A stretch of DNA of 64,000 nt from Ophiosphaerella korrae (lineage: Eukaryota; Ascomycota; Dothideomycetes; Pleosporales; Phaeosphaeriaceae): assembly GCA_028456385.1 (NCBI GenBank), contig JALNQF010000100.1:1-64000 (forward strand), written 5' to 3'. Shown in pieces: positions 1 to 44,342 of this stretch. Made by a program: the position numbers and the translations under genes. How positions within the stretch are numbered: the first letter of the stretch is position 1; every line of letters begins with the position of its first letter. Below the pieces are notes generated by a model. The model ran no database searches. It saw only the letters and a list, made by a program, of their open reading frames with translations, and was not told the DNA's origin.

Positions 1-1238
1 TAACTAGAGCTAATAGTATATAATAACTATAGCTTATCTAAAACTATACTATAGGTAGTAGCTTTTATAGCTAGTACCTAAGTAAGTAACTTTAGAAAGT
101 ATTAAGGAGAGCTAGTAGATAAAGCTAAAATAAAAAAAATACTTATAAGAGGACTAAAGCTTTACTATAATTAACTCCTATTATTACTCTTATACTAAAT
201 AAACCTAGATAGCTATCTAATAGGCGAACTATTTAAGGAAGCTAAGTAAGTCTACCTAACTAGTTACTACTAGATAAGATTATAGACTAAAGTACTAGCT
301 AAACCTATTTAGTATACTAGTTAGTAGATACTAGACTATATATAGGTATATACGTATAAGCTTAATAAATATTATTAATTTATTAAATATAAAGCTTAAC
401 TTATTATATAAAGAGACTAGTAATAAAACATTATAGTATAAGAGACTTATACTATAATACTAGCTAGCTAATCTTTTTAGATACTTATAGCTATTACTAC
501 TAAATATAATCTTAAACTAAAATAGTATAACGTAACTAACGCCTTTATTTATATAGTAATAGACTAAGAAATCTATATAAGAATACTAAGGAGACACTAA
601 AAGAAGAGTATAATCTTTAGAGTCTAAAAAGCCCTATATAGTCTCTAGATCTTACCTCTTCTATAGTAAAGAGAATTTATAGTTATACTTAAAGCTATAG
701 GCTTTTAAATAGTACTATATAAACTATATTATATAGTTAAAGATAGAATTATTATCTTCTTTTATATAGATAATATTATTATTGTATATAATAAGTAGAA
801 GACTAAAGAAGTATAGTAAGTAACTAATCTTCTAAAAGAGAAGTATACTATTACTAGAGGAATAGATTTCTAATAGTTTCTTAGTATTAAAGTAATTTAA
901 GATAGAGAGTAACGTATAATTTAACTACTATAGGTAGTATATATTAATAAGATAAGTTAGCTTATAGATAAACTATATATCTATTACAATATACTTATAG
1001 CTACTACTAAACTTAAGACCTATAATAGTTAGGTAATACTATCTAAGATTAATAAATACTAATACAAAATTAGTTTACTTCTATTTACTACTATAACTAC
1101 TTATCTAGATATAGCTTTTATAATATTATAGCTAGCTTAATTTCTTATAAACCTAAGCACTACTTACTATAAGGCTACTAATTAAGTACTTATATACCTC
1201 TCTTATATAAAATTAAGAGTACTCTAGCTAGGTAGTAG
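1..1238 (+). mobile_element. Ty1/copia retrotransposon, 5' portion (RIP-degraded reverse transcriptase)
   Basis: Conceptual translation across stops recovers a copia reverse transcriptase on the + strand. Around 535-900 there are remnants of the motif read as DVTNAF (here NVTNAF), of the block ending KALY, and of YVDD (here YIDN near 770), followed by a stretch resembling the copia KYTITGG region. Nearly every expected CAG, CAA or TGG codon is TAG/TAA and ATG is almost absent, the RIP signature. The element runs off the left window edge. Its 3' part resumes at 8308, because a gypsy element is inserted into its RNase H region. It cannot encode protein. Confidence 0.8.
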
Positions 1239-1703
1239 TGTTATAGGTGTAACAAGAGAAATCGAGATAGAACTAATTAATCCCGACTTAGACGCTAATA
1301 AAGTATAAGATAAGCAAGGTAACAATCTTAATTAGAAGACTACTTATAACTAGGACACGTAGTAGTAATCTATAATTACGTATAAATAGATTAAAAGTAA
1401 TCTGTAATAACGTATAAATAGATTAGGGTAATCTGTAGTTACGTATAAATAGATTAGTAGTAATCTATAACGTTATATAAATAGATTAAGACAAGTATAT
1501 AGTTAATAGTAATGCGTATTATTAAGATAGTATTAGTAATTTAATCCTTTAACTATAGAACGCTAATACAAGATAGTTGTAAAATATTTTCTATTGTTTA
1601 TAGTTATTGTAGATTACTATACAAGCTTTTAATATTAACCTATAATCTACTAATAACTTCTTAGGTACTAAGAAGTTAACCCTAGTAATTAGTCCTATTA
1701 CAC
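1239..1703 (+). repeat. Left LTR of the gypsy element
   Basis: 465 bp, TG..CA ends with imperfect 9-bp terminal inverted repeats. It contains four tandem copies of a 31-32 bp unit starting at 1366, 1398, 1429 and 1461. Each copy carries a TATAAATA-like core followed by GATTA. The right LTR at 7844 matches almost base for base. Confidence 0.92.
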
Positions 1704-1783
1704 CTTACTAATTTAGTTATTACAAGAAGTAAAGCGTAAGTAGCGCGTAGTCTAGCTAATATAATAGTAGAAAGTTTAACTAA

Positions 1784-4700
1784 AACAAGTAAAGCCCCTA
1801 AGAGTAGTTATAAGTTAGACAGCACTATATAGGAAATAATTAAAGAACGTATTAATAAACTAATAGATAAAAAAAAAGATATAAAAATAGTAATTAACGC
1901 TTTAGAGACGTAGAACAAGGAACTACAAGACTACTTAAAGTAGAATAAAGCTTAGATTAAAGCTATTATTAAAAGATAAAACTAGATAGAATTAATTACT
2001 TAACAATTAGAGATAAGCGCGACAAAGAAACCGCCTAAGATACCTATTCTTAAGAAGTTTAATAGAATAAGAGAGAAACTAAGACCTTTTATAGCTTTAG
2101 TATAACTCTAGATAGATATATAAGTACTATACTTTAATATAGAAGAAAAGAAGGTAATATATATTAGATTATGTCTTAAAGAAGACGTAATAAGATAGTA
2201 TAAACTATATTAGATAGACTATTTAATATATACACTAATAATATAGAAAGACAAGACTAAAGCTATTTTTAGAAGTTATAAGTACTTTACTAAATAAATA
2301 AGAGTAGTATTTAGGGATATAGATATTACCTAGTAAGCTAAAGAGAAACTTAAGAGGCTTATATAAAGCAAGAGTATTCTAGAATATATATTATAGTTTA
2401 AACAACTAGCTTAAAATATAGAATAGAATAAAGTATCCTTAATATTATAATTTAAACAAAGATTAAATACAAAAATTTAATACAAAATAATCTATATAGA
2501 GAAGCCTAGGATATTAGAAGCCCTAAAGTAATAGGTAATATAGATTAACAACAATTTCTAAGAATAGAAAAAGAACAAGTATAGTACTTAACTAAGAAAC
2601 TAAGATACTAGAGACCTTATAATCCTTAATATAAACAAGGATAAGAAGAAGAAGAAGAATAAAGACTTTACGTACTTTAATTGTAGTAAGAAAGGCTACT
2701 ACGTAAAAGATTACTAATTATAAAAGAAGAGAGATATAGTATATTATAAATATAAGAAACTAAGATACTTTGTAAAAGACTATAAGAGTAAAGACCTAAA
2801 GAAAGAAACTTAGTTAAAGATAATAGAGAAGAAGAAGGAAGTACTACAAGTATAAGCTAAACTTTAAGAAAAAGTAGCTAAAAGTAAAGAACTATAGCAT
2901 GTAATACTCTATTAGACCTTTTATTATAAAGACAACTACTATATATATCTTTCTAGTAAGTAGAGAGTAAGATACTTCTTATAATAGAGAAATAGAGTAG
3001 TAGTAATAAAAGAAAGAATAAAAGTATAGCTAAAAGAGATAGTATATATAATAGACCTACTAATAGAAGATTTAGAGAGAGAAGAGCTCTTAGTACTATT
3101 AATCTAGGCTAAAAGACTAGTACTAGATAAAGAAACTACTACAGCTTCCTCTAAAAGACTATAAAAAAGTAAGAAGTAAGTTAGTATAAGAGGTATAGAG
3201 TACGCCTAGCTAGATATATATAGCTATAATAGCTATATAATAATAGATATAGAGGAACAAAATAAAAAATAGAAGTTTATTTAGATATACTTAATAGTTA
3301 TAAGTATAGAGGAAGCGTATAAAGACTAGAAAGAACGTAATTCTAAAGAAATAAAGTTTATACTATTTTAAGAATAGATAAAATAGTATATAGTTATAGT
3401 AGGAAGAATACCTATATAAAAAGAGTAGTAACACCTTATAAGAAAGACGCGATAGATTAATAAAGCTTATACACTAAGAATACTAGTAGTGTACTATATC
3501 TTAATAATAGAAATACTTAGGAAAGATAAGTACTAGAAAGGGGATAATAAGATAATAGATCTAGAACATCTAGTACACTTTAAAGTATTATAGATATTAT
3601 ACTTAGAAAAGAATTATATTATATATAGAAACTCTAAGATAAATAATAACGTATAGCTTATAAGAAGAAAAGGCTATAACTATATAAGAGTAATTCTAGT
3701 AGAAGATATCTAAAGATAGGAAATAATCCTAGAAGATAGATATTTAGTAGTAAGGCTAAGATATAAACTATCTAAGAAATACATCTAAGGAAGACTATAG
3801 TACAAATATATATACAACAAATATCTAAAATATAAAGAATATAAACTTAAAGTAAGACTATAATCTTAGAAGAATAGATAATTTATAAAGATACCTAAAC
3901 AAGAATAGTTAAAAGGTATAAGAAGCTTATATATTATAAAAATAGGTATATACTAAAAAAGGAGAGTATAATTAATAATTAATAGTAAAGCTATAAGAAA
4001 CTTTATATTAAAGAAGTTTATAGAAAACTAAAGAATATATTATATAATAAAGAGATACCCTTAATAGCTAAGTATAATTAAAGGAAAACTATTCTAAAAA
4101 CCTATTAGGTTTAAAATAGTTCTCTTTATACTAGAACTAGAAAAGATAAAGATTAACAATATAGTTATAGATATAACAACAATTAATAACAAGTAAGAAA
4201 TTATACTAGGAATACTATAGTTATAGATAATAAACCTATACATTAATTAGAGAATAGGAAAAATTAGTTACTACTAAATAGAAAAACTAAGAGCTAATAT
4301 AAGCACCTATAAAGGAGAATTCCTAGAAGAATATAAGAAATAGGAACTACAGCTTATAGAGCTAGAAGACTACCTTCTAGAATATTAGCTATAGGACTTA
4401 GTAATAGAAATAGAAAAAGGAAAAAACGTTAAATAGAGCCTAGTCTACAAAAAGATAGAAGAAGAATCTAAGATTAAATAAGTATTTATTAAAAATACAA
4501 TTAAGAAAAAATAGATACAAGAATCTAAATCTTTAGTAGTATATAGACTTATATTTATAGATAAAAAGAGAATAAGTAATAAAAAGCTTTACGTAGACTT
4601 TAGGAAAACTAACGTAGTTATAAATAAAAACTAATACCCTTTACTATAAATAGACAAGATATAAGCTAGACTAAAGAAAGTAAAAATCTTTATAAAACTA

Positions 4701-7195
4701 GATATCTAGAACGCCTATTACTAAATTAGAATTAGAGAAAGTAATAAATAGAAAATAGCGTTTAGAACACAATAGAAACTATATAAATATTTAGTTATAC
4801 TATTTAGATTAACGAACGTACTAGCTGCGTTCTAAGAAAGAATTAATATAGTACTAAAAGAGTACTTAGATATATTTATATTTATATACCTAGACAATAT
4901 CCTTATATTCTTAGAAATAGAGGAAGAATACGTACAATACGTGTATAAGGTGCTAGAGAAGCTAGTAGAAAATAAGTTATTTCTTAAGATAAGAAAATGC
5001 GAATTCTATATAAAGGAAATAGATTTCCTTAGATTTATTATAGAACTAAGAAGAATTAAGATTAATCTAGAAAAGATTAAGTTAATTAACGAATAGCTAA
5101 CACTAAAGAACCTAAGAGAAGTATAATAATTCTATAGCTTAGCTAACTTTTATAAAAAGTTAATAGTAAGATAGTTAGAAGATATAAAACTAATAACAAG
5201 GCTTATAAAGAAAGATACACTATTTAAATAGATAAAGGAATATAAAAAAGTATTTAATAAGATTAAAAGAAAGTTTATAGAAAACCTAGTTATTAGAATA
5301 TATAACCTAGACCTACTAGTAATAGTAAAAATAGACGCATCTAACTTAGTCTATAGAATAGCACTAATACAAGAAGATCTAAGAACTAAATAAGAATATT
5401 TAGTTAAATACTTTTCTAAGAAAATAAAGCTAGTAGAACTTAACTACTTAATTTATAATAAAGAAATACTAGTAATCTATAAAGTATTTAAGTAATAGAA
5501 AGTATACCTATAAAGAGTAAAATATTAAATAAAGGTCTATATAGACTATAGGAATCTTATAGGATTTATACTAAACAAAGAACTATTATAATAATATACA
5601 AGATAGTAGGAATTCCTATTAACATTTAATATAGAAATTATATATATAAAAGGGAAAGATAACTAATTTATAGATACTTTTAGTAAAAGGCTAAACTTAC
5701 AAGAAGAAGTAAGCACTACTAGTATAGTTCTAGTTAAGAATAAAGTAAGACACTTAATCCTAAATATACCTAAAATAGCTACTATACTTAAAAGAATAAG
5801 TAGCAAGCTAGACGAATAGATTTAGAAAATAATATAAGAAGTATCTAAAGAAATAAGAAAACTAGAGATCTAAGAAGGACTTATATAAGTATATAGAAGA
5901 ATATATATTCTAAGAAAGATTTAGAGAGAATTTATATAGTAATTCTATAAACTACTAGTATATAGCTACTAAGGTATTAAAAAAACATTAAATAGACTAC
6001 TATAGGACTACTATATCCTAAAAGCAAGGTAATTAGTAGAAGAAGTACTACAAGACTATATAGAATACTAGAGAAATAAGTATAATAGATATATACTATA
6101 TAGAATACTATAACTAGTAGAAGTACTAGGATAACTATAGGGAGTTATTATAATAGACTTTATTACGAAGCTACCTAAGTCTAAAGATCTAATATTAGGA
6201 GTAGAGTATAATAGAATACTTACAATAGTAGATAAACTTATAAAGTATATATACTTTAGACTATATAAAGAGAAAAGTAAGATAGAAGTTACTATATACT
6301 AGGTTTTAGGAACTATAATAAGCTAGTATAGTATTCTAGATAAGATTATTATAGATAGAGACGTACGATTTATATTAAAACTATAGAGAATAATAACAAC
6401 GTAATTAGGAATACAATACGTAATGTTAATAGTATATTATCTATAAATAGATAGATAATTAGAACGAATAAATTAAATAGTAGAATAATACCTAAGATAC
6501 TACCTTAACTATAACTAGAATAACTAGGTACAACTACTACTTACAGTATAACTAGCATATAATAGCGTAAAGAATATAGTAATAGGAGTATTACTTTTCT
6601 TTATAAACTATAGATTTAACCCTAGTGTATATAGAATACTAAAAAATATAGAATTATAGACTCTAAGAGGAGAAAACTTTGCAAATAGAATAAAAGAGAT
6701 ATATAATTAGTTAAGATAGGACGTAGAATTCCTATATAATTAGATAGTAAAGTACTACAACAAGAAATATAAAGAGAGACTCTAATTTAGAGAGAGAGAA
6801 AAAGTATAGTTAGTTAGAAAGAATATTAAGAGTAAATAATTTAGTTTAAAACTAGATTATGTTAAAATTAGACTATACAAGATTAAAAAGAAAGTTACAC
6901 TAGTTATATATAAATTAAAGCTACTAAGTAAGATAAAGATATACCTAATATTCTATATATTACTACTAGAATAAGTACTACAAGACGTAAAACTACTAGT
7001 ATATAAAGTAGATACGTATAGAGAATAAGAGGAATAAGAAGTTAAAGAAATCCTAGTATACTAGTTCTATAATAGTAGGAACTACTACTTAGTAAAATAA
7101 ATAAGTATAGACGAAAAAGGACAACTATAGGAAGATATATAAGAACTAGAAGATAACCTTAATTACTTTAAGAAACTAGAGGACTTCTAAAGTTA
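1784..7195 (+). pseudogene. Gypsy gag-pol remnant
   Basis: Read through its stops, this region gives a gag-like segment (about 2030-2570), then two zinc-knuckle-like blocks near 2680-2790. Reverse transcriptase follows (about 4530-5110), with a block resembling YVDFRKTN and an FIYLDNIL version of the YxDD box. RNase H covers about 5280-5520. Integrase covers about 5890-6660, with recognisable TKLPKS-like and DRDVRF-like blocks. The last part (about 6880-7190) resembles a chromodomain. Glutamine and tryptophan codons are replaced by TAG/TAA and methionine codons by ATA, so no product is possible. Boundaries are approximate. Confidence 0.8.
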
Positions 7196-7843
7196 AAATC
7201 CTCTAGAGCGCCTTATAGTAAACTAAGAGGACTAATATTACTACTAAAGGATAGAGAAGTAATAAGAACACTTAATATAATAGGAGTAGTATCTATAATA
7301 GCTTTAAAGTTAAGCTCTAACTCTACGAGAGTAGCTTACGCGATAGACTTCTTATTATTTAAGGCCTTTGTCTTACAAAAACAAAGTAGATAAGTGTAAT
7401 TTTTTACTTATATACTTAGAATCTAATTACGTTCTTTTTTAGCCTTAGTAATCTATTTAGATAGTTTATCTTAAGTATAGTTAATAGCTCTCTTTGTTAT
7501 AAATAAGTATAGACGTAAAAATAAGTATTATAAACCTATACTCTATAAGAGATATACTAAAAAAGTTATAAAATATATAGGCGTTAGTACAAATATATAC
7601 CTTATAAGCCTTACTATATTTTAAAGAAATATACTCTATAAGAGGGTTTAAAGCCTTATAACAAGAATAAAGAAATATAGTAATACTATAGTATAATACG
7701 CAATCTACTAATTATAGACAATAAAGAGTAGATTTAGTAAGTATAGAGATAGAGGATAAAGAACTCTATATTAACAAAGAAACTAGATTAATAATACTAG
7801 CTCTAGGATAGATAAACTAGGACCTACTTAGAAGAGGAAATAG

Positions 7844-8307
7844 TGTTATAGGTGTAACAAGAGAAATTAAGATAGAACTAATTAATCCTAACTTAGACGC
7901 TAATAAAGTATAGGACAAGTAGGGTAATAATCTTAATTAGGAGACTACCTATAACTAGGATACGTAGTAGTAATCTATAATTACGTGTAAATAGATTAAA
8001 AGTAATCTATAATAACGCATAAATAGATTAGGGTAATCTATAGTTACGTGCAAATAGATTAGTAGTAATCTATAACGTTGTATAAATAAATTAAAACAAG
8101 TATATAGTTAATAGTAATGCGTATTATTAAAATAGTATTAGTAATTTAATCCTTTAACTATAGAACGCTAATACAAGATAGTTGTAAAACATCTTCTATT
8201 ATTTATAGTTATTGTAGATTACTATATAAGCTTTTAATATTAACCTATAATCTACTAATAACTCCTTAGGTACTAGGAAGTTAACCCTAGTAATTAGTCT
8301 TATTACA
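7844..8307 (+). repeat. Right LTR of the gypsy element
   Basis: 464 bp, near-identical to 1239-1703, including the four 31-32 bp internal repeats. It is followed directly by the AGTAG target duplication. The two LTRs differ at only scattered positions, mostly transitions, although both are heavily RIP-altered. Confidence 0.92.
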
Positions 8308-8907
8308 AGTAGTAACTTATTATAAGTTACTAGTAATACTTTATTTACTAATAATACTATAGACTAAAAAAGCTTATAAAGCTATATAATTAAACTTTTT
8401 AATAGGCTTATTATATAGAGAGTAAATAAGTAAGATATAGTTACTACTTTTATAACTAAAGCTAAATTACTAGCCTTATTATAAGTAGCTAAAGAAGCTA
8501 TATTTATATTAAAACTACTTAACAAACTATATATTAAACTTCCTACAAATTATATTACTATCTAGTATAATAATACTTAAACAATCTAGCTTATTACTAA
8601 AAAACTAGCTAAGCTATAAACTAAGCTTTAGTACGTTAATATCTATAATTATTAGCTAAAATAAAAGGTCTCTACTAGCTAAATTAAAGTAGAATATACT
8701 TTATTAATAGAGATAATAGTAGATAGCTTTATAATAGTCTTACTAATAAATAAATAAAAAAGCTTCTTAAATTAGCTTAGACTAGTAGAAGTAATAGAAT
8801 ACTAAATAATATATAAAGCACTTCTTAATAAAATCTAAGACTACCTTAATAATCTTATACTTATCTTATAATATCTAGTTTACTAATAAGTTACTAACCT
8901 AAAGGGG
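8308..8907 (+). mobile_element. Ty1/copia retrotransposon, 3' portion (RNase H remnant)
   Basis: The copia translation interrupted at 1238 resumes here. Remnants include a block resembling the DxxFADN start of RNase H, a segment like TTSTTEAELLALSQAAKEA (about 8440-8500) and the final block that normally contains RYVDIHRHW (about 8625-8660). It ends in a purine tract AAAGGGG (8901-8907), which suits a polypurine tract next to a 3' LTR. Stops are frequent and RIP-like. It belongs with 1-1238. Confidence 0.75.
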
Positions 8908-9091
8908 TGTATTAGATAAGTTATATAATTAGATACTTAATACGTAATTAGATACGCGATTATATGCGTAATCGCTAAGCTACTAACCTTACTATAGCTA
9001 AAAGGATTATAGCCTTAACCTTTACAAACAAAAGAATTAAACAAAAAATCTTATATATAAAGAGATAGACTACGTTAGTATAACTAATATA
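8908..9091 (+). repeat. Possible 3' LTR of the copia element
   Basis: The sequence after the purine tract starts TGTATTAG. A near inverted match CTAATATA lies at 9084-9091, so the LTR could be about 184 bp. The end is uncertain because RIP could have altered the terminal CA, and the partner LTR lies outside the window. Confidence 0.4.
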
Positions 9092-10901
9092 ATAAAGAAA
9101 CTAGTACCTTAATAGAAGGAGTATTAAGGATCTAGCTTACTACTATCTTAAGAGACCTAGCTAAGACTACTATATCGTAGATATATAGATAGAGCGTAGG
9201 GCTAGAGATAGATAGTAGAATTAATCTACTTAGTTTATACCTAGTGCTATTAAGTTATAAGTAATTAATCTAAAAAAGGGCTTTTCTAAAAGCCTTAGTA
9301 TCCCTCTCTAATAAGGCCCTTATATAGCTATTACGAAAAAGCCTTTTTATTAAACTATTATAACCTCTTTTAAAATCTAATAACAATCTCTACCTTATAA
9401 TAAAAGCCTAAATTAAACGAAGTAATTCTAAGGGTGCGCCTAAAAGTATTAGTATAGATGCAAAGAGTGCTCTTAGCTAATATAGTAAGTTATTTTAGCC
9501 TTATACTACTATTTACTAATAACTATAAGAAAGGATTGCTAATAGAAGTCTACTTATAGCTAGTCGAGGCTAAGGTAGTAATATAATAAAGCTCTTGCTG
9601 CCTTATTTAGACTTTAAGGGCATTAAAGTATTAATTAAGAGCTTTAAGCCTTGCCTAAAATATATCTTTCTCTATATCTACTTTCTCTAATAATAGATAT
9701 CTAACTTAGATACGATACGACACGATTCGCGAATATCTTAGGTCTGTATAATTAACGTAGTAGGATCTCTAGCATTCTACCGCCTCTTATTAAAGCAGCG
9801 TTAGCAATTCCCTTTAAACCCTATTTCCTAGATGCTAATCTGCAGATCTATATTTAAAGCTAATGTAATAAGAAAACCTGCGCCTCTAAATTTCGCAGTA
9901 CCTATAGGTAAGTTTAAAATCTACTATTAGTAATCTTAGCTAACTAGACAGTTTATACGCTAAAAATTACCTCTTAAAGTGTACTTAAGAAATGAAAGGA
10001 AGGGAAGCATTAAAGCGGCTCTAAGGGAATTACTGATCCTGTAGGTGGGGATTATGTAAAACCTACAATATAGAGTGCCTGGAGGTGGCTGCTGCACATA
10101 TGAGCAAATATCTTGCCGATAATTATCTTTAATGCAAGTGGCAATTATGTGGCCTTACTGCCTATAGCATTAATGCTATGCATATGCATCTTCTTGAGAG
10201 TTATAATACTTACACTTAGAAGACTATACCTACGTAGTTTACGTTTTGCTACGAATGCGCTATATAGATTGAAAGCATACTGGACTGAATGGTATATTGT
10301 GGTCATCATGCTATGAACCCGGGCATTGTTTATAGGCTAGTAACTGTGGAGGGGATTATGGCGTTACCTGGTTGATGCCTATATTGTATGGGAGATGGGT
10401 TTTATACCTGGATAACTAGTACTACAAGTTTTCTAACGCATGTTGACAGCTATATATAGCAAGAGCGCAAAGAGCTTGGGTTTTATAAATGTCCTTATTA
10501 TTCCTGTAGAAGGAAAATCTTTGAGACTGGAGCAATTAAGCAACATCTTGATGAGGTGCACGCGATACCTTTTCTACAATACATATAGAAATAGAAAATA
10601 TCATATATATAATTTCGTGAACTTGACAACTTGCATGTAGGAGACCCTTAACTAACGTATCAAATCAAAGTTGTAGATTGACGTAGCGCGATAGGATAGG
10701 AAAGCCCAGGCGACTACAGAGACAGAAGAAACCAAATGACTTACTTTACTCATCCTGGGCGGAAGACTAGAGCAATTAACCCCGTTAGTCACGTCGTTCT
10801 AGTAGCAGACATATATCAAGACGGTATAATCTGATTGGCTTTATTTTAGGCCCACGGTTTAATTTAGTATACAGCATACATAAAAATGAAACTCAGATGC
10901 A
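9092..10901. other. Gene-free transition zone
   Basis: Composition moves from TA-rich RIP sequence (to about 9700) to ordinary sequence. Short ORFs at 10113-10316 and 10440-10640 show no recognisable protein features. I see no gene here. Unidentified repeat debris is likely but cannot be assigned. Confidence 0.6.
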
Positions 10902-18389: not shown

Positions 18390-20761
18390 ATGACTCTCTG
18401 CTCAGCATGTCAAAAATTCTCCCTGCACAGCTTTTCCAAAGACCCCGATGGCATCCGCGCATACAAACTCCCAGTCATTCAGGATGGCGCTGAAAGCGGA
18501 TGCGAGTTTTGCAAGCTCATTGTTACAGTGATGAGTGAGGATATTGCTTGTGCGCCATATGCAGCGTCCAAAACCTGGGTTAGGATGAGGTTTGCAAGCG
18601 AAATCGAACGAAAGGGAAAAGAATCTAGTCTTGGATACACCAAATTCTACGTCAAACTTACAGCCAATATATTTCCTAAGGTTCGACAACAAAATGAGGA
18701 GGGTGGGAAGGAATACGAGCTATGCATCGCTGCAGATGAACGTAAGTCAGTTTGGAAAGCAAGTATGCAAATCATTGTCTTGATTTCCATTGCATATCGG
18801 GGGATATTGTCGCCCAACTGAATACAAAAGGCTCGCTTCAACAGAGACAACTCTATCTACATTCGTTTAAGCTTACAATCCCAACAGGTAGTGCTGCAGC
18901 CAAGAACGGAGATATTCTAGGGAGATATCTCGGTGAAAATCCTTCATCTGACCAACACATCGCAACCATCCTTCAGTGGCTTCACGAATGCAACACACAC
19001 CAGGCTTGCAACTGGACCAACTCAGGCACCGTTCAACTGTATACAGAAAATTCGCCACTTCCAACTCGTTGCATCGATGTACAGTCTGAAGACCTTGTTC
19101 TCCGAGAAACAAGCGGATCATACGGTTCTTACCTTACACTAAGCCACCGCTGGAACTCAGAGACCGAAAGATGCAAAACAACCACCGCAAACATCCTCTC
19201 CAGAACAAACAGCCTCGACTTCACCCTTCTTTCCAAAACCTTCCAAGACGCCATCACCCTCACCCGCCGCCTCGGCTTCCGCTATATATGGATCGACTCC
19301 CTCTGCATCATCCAAAGCGGCGACTCCGGCGGCGACTGGTCAAAAGAAGCACTGAAAATGGGCCAATACTACCAGTACTGCACATTTACTATCGCCGCAA
19401 CCGAGTCCTCCGCTCAGCACGGCTTCATCGCGCCGCGCACACAGCGCCCCTTTACGTCCCTAGTGCGCCTCCCGTACCGCGACAGACAAGATGTCCCGGC
19501 GGGGTACATGTACATGTACAAGCGTGTGCACCCCATGGATGAGCAGTTCTTGCACGGCGTGTGGAACAGCGCGCTCCTGAAGCGCGGGTGGGTGCACCAG
19601 GAGTGGCTGCTGAGTCGGCGCGTGGTGTACTTCACGCCGACGCAGATCTTCTTCGAGTGCGCGGCGGGACGCCTATGTAGCGAGTCGGGTGACACGCTTA
19701 AGTCCCCTGCTGCGCCTGCGGGTCTCGAGCGGATGTTCAGTCTGAAGAACGATTTGAGTTTGAGTCCGGCGTCGGTAAAGGATACGTGGTATCGCATTCT
19801 GGAAACGTATTCGCGTCTAGATTTTACGGTTGCGGGGAAGGATCGGATTGTTGCGTTGGCGGGTATTGCGGGGGAGGTGAGAGAGGTGTTTGCAAGGGAG
19901 AACCAGATGAGGAATAGTTCGGAGCCGCTTGAATATGTTTCGGGAATCTGGCTGAGAGATTTGCACCATGGGTTGCTGTGGGAGCAAAAAAAGGCGCCAG
20001 ATGAGTATTTGCGTATCGCGACGTTGCCGACTTGGTCGTGGGCGTCGATCTTGCTGGAGTTGAAGTGGCCGCAACGGCGCAAACGGACGAGAGCTGCGTT
20101 TCGAGTCATTGGCTTGGTTTCTGCCACAGGGGCGAGGTATGATGTAGGGCCATCCGGTGATATGGCATCTCGTAGGCCGGACGACGCATCTTCTGTGCCT
20201 TTGCTCAGCGCGACTGAAGAAGATGGTTATGACTACGATGTTGGCAACACGTTTACAATGCTTCACATTCACGGCAGTGTCATTCCCTTGATCCAACACG
20301 GACTATTCAGCTCCAAGGCCGACATCCGTACCGCGGCGTTGAATACAGGCGTGAAGATACCCCATCGCGATCTCCTATCTTGGGTGGGCAGCCTCCAAGC
20401 AGAGTCTGTAGATCCGGCAGAATGGGAGGCTGCACTCGGCATTGATTCCAAGTCCAAGCCCTGGCGGACGATATGTTCGCCCAATGCCCCGGATATCATT
20501 GTCGGCTGGGGATCGTTTGAGAAGACTCTTTCCATCACTGGGTCAGATACTGTCGAGACACTACATATCTCTACCGAATCGGGTATACCCGGTGGTTTAG
20601 CTGTGGGTTCGCTGGGTGTGAGTCATGAAGTAGCGAATGTTTTGTTTGTAGAATGGATAGGCGACGGGAGATATCGCAGGATAGGCGTTGGTAAAATATT
20701 TGACCAGAGCGTCATCGGCAGCTTTCGTAACAAAGCGTTGTGCGACCTAGAGTTGGAGTGA
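18390..20761 (+). CDS. HET-domain (heterokaryon incompatibility-type) protein
   Basis: Two exons, 18390-18741 and 18831-20761, separated by an 89-nt intron (GTAAGT..AAAAG), encode about 760 residues. The start ATG has a good context (CCACAATG). The HET domain lies at about residues 210-320, with YLTLSHRWN, then a region ending FRYIWIDSLCIIQ, then SKEALKMGQYYQ and ATESSAQHGF. The RGWVHQEWLLSRRVVYF block follows. HET proteins in Pezizomycotina trigger or modulate cell death on non-self recognition after hyphal fusion. Whether this one is an incompatibility locus cannot be told. A short cysteine motif (CSACQKF) lies at the N-terminus. The exon 2 acceptor was chosen because it keeps the frame; RNA data could shift it. 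Confidence 0.88.
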
Positions 20762-40866: not shown

Positions 40867-43800
40867 TTACAACTCGTCGTGATCGGGCTGAGCATCCTCA
40901 CCGGCGCCACCAGCCGAGCCGTAGAGCTTGGAGGTGATGGGGTAGGCAACGTCGGACAGCTTCTGGAACTGCTCATCAAAGTCCTCAGCAACAGCTGTAG
41001 CAGCGTTCTCCTCAAGCCAGTCCTGGGTCTCCTTGACGGCATCCTTGATGGTCTCCTTGTCGTCATCCTCAATCTTGCCACCTAGACCCTCTTCGTCGTT
41101 GACCTGGTTCTTCAGGCTGTAGGCATAATTCTCAAGCTTGTTGCGAGACTCAATGCGTTCACGGTTAGCCTTGTCTTCCTCAGCGTACTTCTCGGCCTCG
41201 TCAACCATGCGCTGAATGTCGTCGCTGCTAAGGCGGCCCTTGTCGTTGGTGATGGTGATGCTCTCAGCCTTGCCAGTGCCCTTGTCGACAGCGGAGACCT
41301 TGAGGATACCGTTGGCATCGAGCTCGAAAGTGACCTCAATCTGGGGAACACCACGGGGAGCGGGACTATCATCTGATTAGTTTATACAAGTGTTGGCCAA
41401 TACGAGATGACTTACGGGATGTTGGTAAGCTCGAACTTGCCGAGATTGTTGCTGTGAAACGAGTCAGTTGATAATTCCACAGCGACGCTTGTGACGAGCA
41501 GAAAATTGATGGCGATGAAGGACATTCCGGTCTTTGGCTGAGTACTCGCAAGGTTTGCAGTAGAGACCACAGCCGTCGGCGACAACGGATTTGTGGCGGG
41601 GACTGGCAAGGTGGCGCTGCAGATTGCTTGACCTTGGGAAAGAACGATCACAGGGAGAGCAGTGGAACTTCTTCTCCTTGAAATAACGCCTGTCTTTGGC
41701 CGTGTTCTTGGGCTGCGACCTCTTATTGCACTCAGCCTTGAAGGCGAGGAACTTCTTCTGCTCCGCTGGGGTTCGCTCTGCCTTGTTCTTCGCATCCCAA
41801 ATTCTCCGGACCTCGTGCTTTCTCTTAAGAGAGATAATGGCCATGAATTCCAGCTGTTCAGCAGTAAGGTCGAGGTCGTCGACTCCATTGATGCACTTTT
41901 CGGAGAGTGGACTGTGAGAGGAGAGGCCCGACCATTCATAATCATCGCGCGACCAGGGACTATCCGGAAAGCTGTACTTCGTGGTCCGCTTGTACATAGA
42001 CCAGAATATGAGATAAAATGCGGCCTCGATGGCGATGAGTGCAGCGCGGAATGTTGGGACATGCGCTGGAGCAGGAATTGGACAGTGGCAAAGCAATGCT
42101 GCATGGATCTGCTTGTAGCCCTGGTTCTTCGCATCTCGGACTCGACTGGGCTCGATTCTACGGTTCTTGTGCTGTACCAGGCGTGTTTGGACTCTATATT
42201 TTTTGGTGTCGGTTCCAGAGCCGATGTAGACCATGTACCGACTGCCCTTTTTTAGGACAAGGACATAGATACCCCATGATTTGGTAGGGACGGCGTCAGG
42301 GAGAGATAAGAGCCAGTCAACGCTTGGTGGCGAACTGCCTTGGACGGCGTCGAAAAGCCCGTCAACGAAGGTGAGACCGAGTTGAGGAAAGAGCCCGACC
42401 AAGTTGTCAAGTTCAGGAAAGAGAGCACGAAAGCGAGGATTGATCCAGTCCTGAACAGAAAGGCACAGCCAAGTTGCATGTAGAATGAGTGATTCGATGT
42501 CGACTGCATCGTAGAGCATCTTGCCTGCATTGCTCGGCATCCGTGAGGCATGAGGGAAGAAAAAGGCGACGAGATGGCATACGACTCATCTTCACAGCCA
42601 GAGGCAGGTGCATGTGGATGGTAAACACCCTGTCTGAGTAGGTGCGCTGGGCACCGAGTCCGCTGAGGAAGGTGCAGCACGGAATGTCCAAAAAGTAGAA
42701 AAGGAAGAAAATAATAAAGAGGAACACTGAATAATAGAGAGGAACACTCACTTGTCTTTCGTCAAAGCACGTTCGCCTTCAAATACCTGGATCAAGACTA
42801 CTGGCTGGTTATCGGCGGCCGTGGAGAAGATCTGGCTCTTCTTAGTGGGAATGTTGGTACCGCGCTTGATGAGAGTGGTCATAACGCCTCCAGTGGTCTC
42901 AATACCGAGGGTAAGCGGGTTGACATCCATGAGAATGATCTCCTCGGTAGCCTTGTCACCAGAGAGAACACCACCCTGAACAGCAGCGCCGAAAGCGACA
43001 GCCTCATCGGGGTTAACGTCCTTGCGAGCCTTCTTTCCGAAGTACTCCTCAAGCATAGCCTGAACCTTGGGGATACGAGTAGAACCACCAACGAGGACGA
43101 TGTCATCGATGTCGGCCTTCTTCAACTTGGCGTCCTTGAGAACCTGCTCAACAGGCTTGAGCGTCTTCTTGAACAGGTCGTTGTTGAGCTCCTCGAATTT
43201 GGCGCGCGTGAGGGTCTCAGAGAAGTCGTTGCCTTTGTGGAAAGACTCAATCTCAATCTTGGTTGTCTTCTGGGAGGAAAGCGTGCGCTTGGCCTTCTCA
43301 ACCTCGCGCTTCAGCTTACCCATCGTCTTGGCATCCTTGCTGATATCGACGTCGTTCTCCTTGTTGTACTTCTTGACAAAGTGGGAGATGACACGGTTGT
43401 CGAAGTCTTCTCCGCCCAAGTGAGTATCACCCGCAGTAGATTGAACCTCGAAAACGCCCTCCTCGATTGTAAGGATGGAGACATCGAAAGTACCACCACC
43501 AAGATCATAGACGAGAACCTGGCGCTCCTTCTTGTCGGCGACCTTGTCAAGACCGTAAGCCAAAGCGGCAGCGGTAGGCTCGTTGACGACACGGAGGACG
43601 TTGAGACCGGCGATGGTTCCGGCGTCCTTAGTGGCGGCACGCTGGGCGTCGTTGAAGTAGGCGGGAACAGTAACAACGGCGTTCTTGACGGGCTCGCCAA
43701 GATAGCTCTCGGCAATCTCCTTCATCTTGCCGAGAACCATGGCTGAAATTTCCTCAGGTGTGAAAGTGGTCTCCTTCTTGTGGACCTCAACACTGACGCG

Positions 43801-44342
43801 GGGTTGGCCACCCTTGTTGATGACCTTGAAGGGGAAGTGCTTGATATCATTCTGAACGGCCTTGTCTGTGAACTTTTGTCCAATGAGACGTTTCTGCCAC
43901 ATGTCAGTACTCAATGGTTGGAATTCTGGCCGAGTTGCTTACGATGTCAAAGATAGTCCGGTGGGGGTTGCTGGCGTACTGATTCTTTGCAGCGTCTCCA
44001 ACAAGACGCTCGTCGTCGGTGAAGGCAACCCAAGATGGTGTGATACGGTTACCTGGTGAAGATGATCAGCTTATGTCGGTTGGGAGGGCGGCGTCCGAAC
44101 TCACCTTGGTCGTTGACCATGATCTCAACCTTTCCATGCTTCATGATACCGACACAAGAGTAGGTCGTTCCCAGATCGATACCAATGACGGGACCAGAGA
44201 CGGCGTTCTCATCCTTCAGAGGCTCTTGGTCCTGGGCGTGTGCCGTCTTTGCCAGCATCAAACCGCCGACCAGGACGAGGAGAAGATAGAAGGCAATGGA
44301 CCATGATGAGCGCTTGCTAGCACTCTGCGAGCTCCGTGCCAT
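40867..44342 (-). CDS. KAR2: ER chaperone BiP/Kar2 (HSP70)
   Basis: Five exons (44342-44105, 44052-43943, 43893-42752, 41451-41416, 41365-40867) encode 674 residues. An N-terminal hydrophobic signal (residues about 15-36) precedes the HSP70 ATPase motifs: [26 protein letters not shown] and [13 protein letters not shown]. The peptide-binding domain begins near [12 protein letters not shown], and the protein ends in HDEL, the ER retention signal. BiP folds secretory proteins, drives post-translational import and senses unfolded protein. Introns 1, 2 and 4 are 52, 49 and 50 nt. Intron 3 is 1300 nt and holds a nuclease ORF. Exon 4 is only 36 nt. All splices keep the frame and the protein appears fully intact, as expected for an essential gene. 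Confidence 0.96.
41464..42540 (-). CDS. GIY-YIG endonuclease with two C2H2 zinc fingers, nested in a BiP intron
   Basis: An uninterrupted 358-codon frame. The GIY-YIG core spans about residues 85-180: G90-I91-Y92, Y105-I106-G107, the Arg/His block TRLVQH at 119-124 and the likely metal-binding E172 in AIEAAF. Two zinc fingers follow with identical spacing C-x2-C-x12-H-x5-H (C294, C297, H310, H316; C328, C331, H344, H350). A nuclease head with a zinc-finger DNA-binding tail recalls intron-homing I-TevI. Similar GIY-YIG/C2H2 proteins are, to my memory, scattered and unnamed in fungal genomes. The ATG at 42540 is the first in frame after an upstream TGA; how the ORF is expressed is unclear. Its TGA stop lies within the host intron's branch site. 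The intact frame implies recent activity or selection. Confidence 0.85.
   Translation of the reverse strand: MPSNAGKMLYDAVDIESLILHATWLCLSVQDWINPRFRALFPELDNLVGLFPQLGLTFVDGLFDAVQGSSPPSVDWLLSLPDAVPTKSWGIYVLVLKKGSRYMVYIGSGTDTKKYRVQTRLVQHKNRRIEPSRVRDAKNQGYKQIHAALLCHCPIPAPAHVPTFRAALIAIEAAFYLIFWSMYKRTTKYSFPDSPWSRDDYEWSGLSSHSPLSEKCINGVDDLDLTAEQLEFMAIISLKRKHEVRRIWDAKNKAERTPAEQKKFLAFKAECNKRSQPKNTAKDRRYFKEKKFHCSPCDRSFPRSSNLQRHLASPRHKSVVADGCGLYCKPCEYSAKDRNVLHRHQFSARHKRRCGIIN
42711..42750. repeat. 20-bp tandem repeat abutting the BiP intron 3 donor
   Basis: Units 42711-42730 and 42731-42750 match at 18 of 20 positions and end one base from the splice donor (42751). The inner copy contains a near-copy of the donor context (TCAGTG instead of TGAGTG). 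Confidence 0.8.

Follow-up and report, generated by a model that had tools for sequence, protein, structure and literature searches.

A candidate homing-type endonuclease gene within a spliceosomal intron of BiP/KAR2 in Ophiosphaerella korrae

The gain and spread of spliceosomal introns is a long-standing open question, and the BiP/KAR2 gene of Ophiosphaerella korrae raises it in a concrete form: why does one intron of a nuclear housekeeping gene reach 1300 nt, and what is an intact reading frame doing inside it? The gene lies in contig JALNQF010000100.1, positions 1 to 64,000, and this whole stretch of 64,000 nt is referred to here as the window. The answer which we favour, with moderate confidence, is that the intron lodges a homing-type nuclear endonuclease gene, one of a small and mostly decayed family found at housekeeping genes.

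BiP is encoded on the minus strand, and reading of its exons and introns gives four introns of 52, 49, 1300 and 50 nt. The contrast between the third intron and its neighbours of about 50 nt, pointed out in an earlier note made from the sequence alone, is thereby confirmed. The relevant parts of the gene, in the order of transcription, are:

42752..43893, minus strand: BiP exon 3, upstream flank of the intron 3 site
41452..42751, minus strand: BiP/KAR2 intron 3, 1300 nt, phase 2, with donor GTGAGT, branch-like CTGAC and acceptor CAG
42710..42748, minus strand: 19-nt tandem duplication, copies 95% identical, beginning three bases past the donor boundary of intron 3
41416..41451, minus strand: BiP exon 4, 36 nt, downstream flank of the intron 3 site
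40867..41365, minus strand: BiP exon 5, ending with HDEL and the stop

The splice junction of intron 3 reads AAAGACAA/GTGAGTG...CAACTGACTCGTTTCACAG/CAACAATC, and a full-length protein, from the signal peptide through HDEL, results when the exons are joined, as the same note had claimed for the splice signals and for the HSP70 sequence restored by removal of the intron. At the sequence level, intron 3 therefore has the GT-AG spliceosomal form, with excision restoring the host protein. A self-splicing intron was rejected, as Rfam matched no group I or group II intron in it (E<=10, both strands). The short exon 4 is wedged between the 1300-nt and the 50-nt introns.

The age of the intron is hardly informed by the other Hsp70 genes of this genome. 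A search at E<=1e-5 gave three Hsp70 paralogues, all uninterrupted at the insertion site; these tell little on this point because they presumably split from BiP long ago. One of them, an uninterrupted gene on contig C457 (L041) which was read as a cytosolic Hsp70, has nearly identical DNA at the position of the BiP insertion (GACAACAAC..CTCGGCAAGTTCGAGCTTAC), and it could therefore be a second target.

Intron 3 holds an ORF on the same strand as BiP, with the following elements:

41464..42540, minus strand: intact 358-codon ORF (358 aa plus stop) for a predicted GIY-YIG-type nuclease with two C2H2 fingers
42265..42273, minus strand: GIY motif, residues 90-92
42220..42228, minus strand: YIG motif, residues 105-107
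42181..42183, minus strand: Arg120, invariant in the four-member alignment
42025..42027, minus strand: Glu172, putative metal ligand, likewise invariant among the four aligned members
41593..41661, minus strand: C2H2 finger 1, residues 294-316
41491..41559, minus strand: C2H2 finger 2, residues 328-350

The frame, its strand, the GIY and YIG motifs, the Arg, Glu172 and the two equally spaced fingers had all been described before and were all recovered. Both fingers follow the spacing C-x2-C-x12-H-x5-H, starting at residues 294 and 328, and the ORF ends with a TGA that forms part of the branch-like CTGAC, 12 nt short of the intron end. The chance of 358 open codons in one given frame, at this base composition, is about 5e-7. 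With a GC content of 52%, the ORF has codon usage of the native nuclear type: it scored 0.141 bits per codon, in comparison with 0.116-0.259 for the training set (nine ORFs of the window) and a maximum of 0.033 in 500 shuffles. One antisense frame of the same region scores 0.158, so codon usage by itself is no proof. Pfam identified zf-met with 33.8 bits (cut-off 21.2), and at E<=1 only zinc-finger families were matched, GIY-YIG being absent.

The assignment of the protein to the GIY-YIG superfamily comes from its motifs and from a weak profile similarity that is in register. GIY and YIG stand at the usual spacing with Arg and Glu downstream, and of 200000 shuffled versions of the ORF protein, 18 contained the pattern GIY-x(8,16)-YIG. 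When the ORF was aligned with three relatives from the same genome, 12 columns were invariant, among them Y92, R120 and E172, which we take to match three catalytic residues of the superfamily. The profile of these four members was compared by hhalign with a set of seven GIY-YIG domains encoded in this genome; six lie on the mitochondrial contig C92 and one elsewhere, the latter presumably SLX1-like. This alignment brought GIY, YIG and Arg onto their counterparts with a score of 21.1, a value that none of 300 column shuffles reached (at most 17.9), at a probability of just 8.6%. An HMM built from the seven domains gave 8.2 bits for the BiP ORF, a score found in none of 3000 shuffles (best 8.1), and 1.8 bits for the copy near ATP2 described below, which 25 of 3000 shuffles equalled; the ORF beside RPT1 was not listed by this HMM.

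Neither Pfam nor fold searches confirmed the assignment. The seven matches of PF01541 in the whole genome include none of the five family loci, and Pfam GIY-YIG matched none of the four aligned members. Structure models predicted from single sequences were poor (pLDDT 37.6 and 61.4); the domain model with pLDDT 61.4 runs strand, strand, short strand, helix, strand, helix, and no GIY-YIG structure stood among the best 50 matches listed by each of three structure searches. The protein is likely a divergent GIY-YIG-type protein; of the nuclease proposed in the earlier note, the motifs stood and were joined by the in-register profile match, with Pfam and fold searches giving no confirmation.

Is the BiP ORF alone? 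Searches of the 63-Mb source genome, the only fungal genome covered, with the ORF and its relatives found at least five nuclear loci, the counts being lower bounds. Copy 1, in BiP, is intact, and the others are:

C1:702195-702705, same strand as pyruvate carboxylase (PYC): copy 2, in a 966-nt intron (L015 4332-5297)
C334:498005-498820, same strand as RPT1: copy 3, 205 nt past the RPT1 stop, open over 272 aa
C334:664505-664735, same strand as ATP1: copy 4, 331 nt past the ATP1 stop, broken
C30:89679-90131, minus strand: copy 5, broken, between plus-strand GBE1 and ATP2

The earlier note had suggested looking for related ORFs in introns of other conserved genes, and copy 2 is such a case, although a broken one, being frameshifted with one stop and no detected zinc-finger part. 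Its 966-nt intron neighbours one of 48 nt, and the joined exons restore PYC, reading TICYSGDMLKPNAKYNL. The copy beside RPT1 retains the Tyr, Tyr, Arg and Glu positions with YIG changed to YIC, and no fingers were found in it. Recognisable fingers are present in the BiP copy only, besides a decayed finger region about 380 nt beyond the copy beside ATP1 (E 0.005). Thus, three of the four relatives of the BiP ORF are broken, and two of the five members, those of RPT1 and ATP1, lie 3' of a coding sequence rather than in an intron of one.

All four loci other than BiP either lie at a deeply conserved gene or bear a fragment of one. As a control, core genes made up 4 of 15 window ORFs (three genes) by our own reading of Pfam names, a loose comparison given that the ORFs were chosen and named by hand; the BiP copy, as the starting point, was left uncounted.

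Several weaker candidates were dropped: C209 (E 1.27 in one search and 0.24 in another), C190 (E 0.698, read as a kinase-like ORF), and C1:673020 and C103, which matched in the zinc-finger tail only at E above 0.05. Scans of viral and prokaryote collections yielded nothing confirmed. No significant flanking DNA common to the copies was found, the best match of intron 3 to the four other loci having an E of 0.011, and the mobile unit therefore cannot be delimited. Introners, similar introns present in many copies, are one form in which spliceosomal introns spread. In contrast, the DNA of the whole BiP intron 3 had itself as sole match in its own genome; an introner or a transposon with shared ends was rejected on this ground together with the best match between loci.

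The surroundings of copy 5 deserve separate attention. The functional ATP2 gene has an intron of 377 nt (L016 7997-8373), and a 309-bp copy of the 3' part of this intron and the start of the next exon, 82% identical, lies at L016 3924-4232 (source 8226-8533). It shares the strand of copy 5 and follows it at a distance of about 520 nt, counted from the last residue that was matched; with respect to ATP2 itself, it is inverted. G to A and C to T changes account for 27 of its 54 substitutions, which is suggestive of repeat-induced mutation. No other fragment of ATP2 was found: the ATP2 intron as query matched itself and this fragment and nothing else, and the exon as query gave the fragment, ATP2, and three matches at only 26-28% identity. 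In the BiP copy, the equivalent residue is about 550 nt from the end of the intron. Given this similar spacing, an ATP2 intron may formerly have housed the ORF, copy 5 being a displaced part of it. On the other hand, nothing more of the ORF could be recognised in the gap between copy 5 and the fragment, and a weak repeat is common to this gap and nearby DNA, so the match in spacing may be accidental.

The favoured reading, a homing-type gene, could operate as follows. If expressed, the protein would recognise BiP DNA that lacks the intron, at the highly conserved sequence around ACAA/CAAC, and cut it; repair off the intron-bearing homologue would copy the entire intron into the cut allele, and the intron would then shield the site from further cutting. 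The insert would be hidden and harmless because the host spliceosome removes the intron. The same events at other conserved genes are suggested by the PYC copy and by the fragment of ATP2, and a second solution, behind the 3' end of a gene, by the copies of RPT1 and ATP1. Mostly decayed copies at conserved genes are as expected from the gain-decay cycle of homing genes, and the intact BiP copy may be mobile at present.

Such an arrangement is no longer without precedent, since 334 endonuclease genes, 132 of them GIY-YIG, were described in November 2025 in spliceosomal introns of mirusviruses, named shintrons; the paper calls the association of endonucleases with spliceosomal introns previously unobserved (PMC12768974). 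Shintrons resemble BiP intron 3, with its candidate nuclease gene, in having an endonuclease gene, GIY-YIG among other types, in a GT-AG spliceosomal intron, in lacking any group I/II signature and in residing mostly in conserved key genes. They differ in their mirusvirus hosts (PMC12768974), the BiP case being in a fungal nuclear housekeeping gene, with C-terminal zinc fingers and members also 3' of genes; the resemblance is one of arrangement. Among the literature matches listed, judged by titles and the starts of abstracts within a scope that leaves out most subscription papers and all of bioRxiv, there was no cellular shintron-like case and no further shintron paper. BiP intron 3 is, as far as these searches show, the first cellular case.

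Another relevant comparison is with the WHO elements of yeasts, whose endonuclease domain is of the LAGLIDADG type. In Torulaspora and Lachancea, an intein-derived nuclease of these elements replaces the 3' end of FBA1, and in all five WHO10 insertions the endonuclease gene is directly followed by a fragment of FBA1 (PMC7282813). WHO elements and, on the favoured reading, the BiP family are both nuclear and selfish, combine an endonuclease with a zinc finger, adjoin a conserved metabolic gene and have many decayed copies. The copy near ATP2 recalls WHO10, with a fragment of the target gene downstream, here about 520 nt off; behind the RPT1 and ATP1 copies no target-gene fragment was found. A WHO-style displacement of the 3' ends of RPT1 and ATP1 by their copies was rejected, as nothing convincing appeared at E<=10. 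The BiP family also differs from WHO elements in its predicted GIY-YIG-like nuclease and in having two of five members within introns of coding sequences. No LAGLIDADG or intein-type Pfam match was obtained for any of four family members.

Two further systems are closer in part. Group I introns of organelles and nuclear rDNA likewise carry homing endonuclease genes and leave the insert silent, but they are self-splicing ribozymes (PMC9548176), whereas Rfam matched no ribozyme in BiP intron 3. Ustilago maydis has a GIY-YIG homing endonuclease gene in its nuclear genome as well; that gene is telomeric, came from the mitochondrion, interrupts a helicase gene and was judged non-functional (PMC7593156).

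A stronger version of the favoured reading is that BiP intron 3 is an active cellular shintron, in which the spliceosome takes the place of the ribozyme or intein, the family enters conserved genes by way of an intron or, as WHO elements do, at the 3' end, and spliceosomal introns in cellular genes arise or spread in part through homing. We regard this as a tentative possibility, somewhat below an even chance. For the selfish homing element using the spliceosome, as the earlier note had put it, what stood is the spliceosomal form, the lack of a ribozyme match, the dispersed nuclear family, the PYC intron member and the ATP2 intron/exon fragment; the RPT1 and ATP1 members 3' of coding sequence and the motif-level GIY-YIG assignment count in part against a simple model of the intron as vehicle.

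Other explanations of the same loci have to be weighed. Copies of a nuclease gene could have landed by ectopic repair of breaks, with the harmless ones in introns and 3' flanks surviving and no homing taking place here. The 3'-flank positions of the RPT1 and ATP1 copies and the repeat-bearing DNA around copy 5 agree with this account, as does the lack of an obvious common target motif, by eye, at the BiP, PYC and ATP2 junctions; WHO10 in T. globosa likewise spread without site homology (PMC7282813). However, it does not lead one to expect four further loci at or carrying conserved genes, in comparison with the 4 of 15 window ORFs of the loose control, nor an intact BiP ORF terminating at the branch site, and we consider it rather unlikely.

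It is less probable still, though not negligible, that the ORF is a domesticated host gene, kept for a cellular function and inherited vertically inside the intron. Its intact frame, native codon usage and two well-formed zinc fingers would be natural for such a gene, and the broken state of three of four relatives also fits. Against this, no sign of a host function emerged in the analysis, decayed relatives are usual among selfish genes, and the family is small and scattered. Relocation of a mitochondrial homing endonuclease to the nucleus would have a ready source in C92, mitochondrial by its genes and with six GIY-YIG matches, yet those loci have 26-30% GC against the 52% and native nuclear codon usage of the ORF, on which grounds this origin was rejected, and none of the six is among the whole-genome matches of the ORF at E<=10; its probability is very small. 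C92 (L002-L007) is about 88 kb long, and some of its GIY-YIG matches are in frames that continue mitochondrial genes.

In the literature found, endonuclease-driven homing of spliceosomal introns is proposed for mirusviruses only (PMC12768974). If the homing reading is true, essential cellular genes would offer an example on which the mechanism could be tested in a fungus, and this would hint that the shintrons of viruses and the WHO elements of yeasts follow a single principle with two different results. It could also account for some of the unusually long introns of conserved fungal genes, and nuclear introns may serve as hiding places for selfish genes.

Elsewhere in the window, two features of a different nature were recorded. 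Positions 1-10000 form a stretch of about 10 kb at 23-26% GC, in comparison with 43-57% elsewhere, with the look of a mutated repeat block, and positions 18746-20758 contain an ORF of 671 aa with a HET domain (heterokaryon incompatibility).
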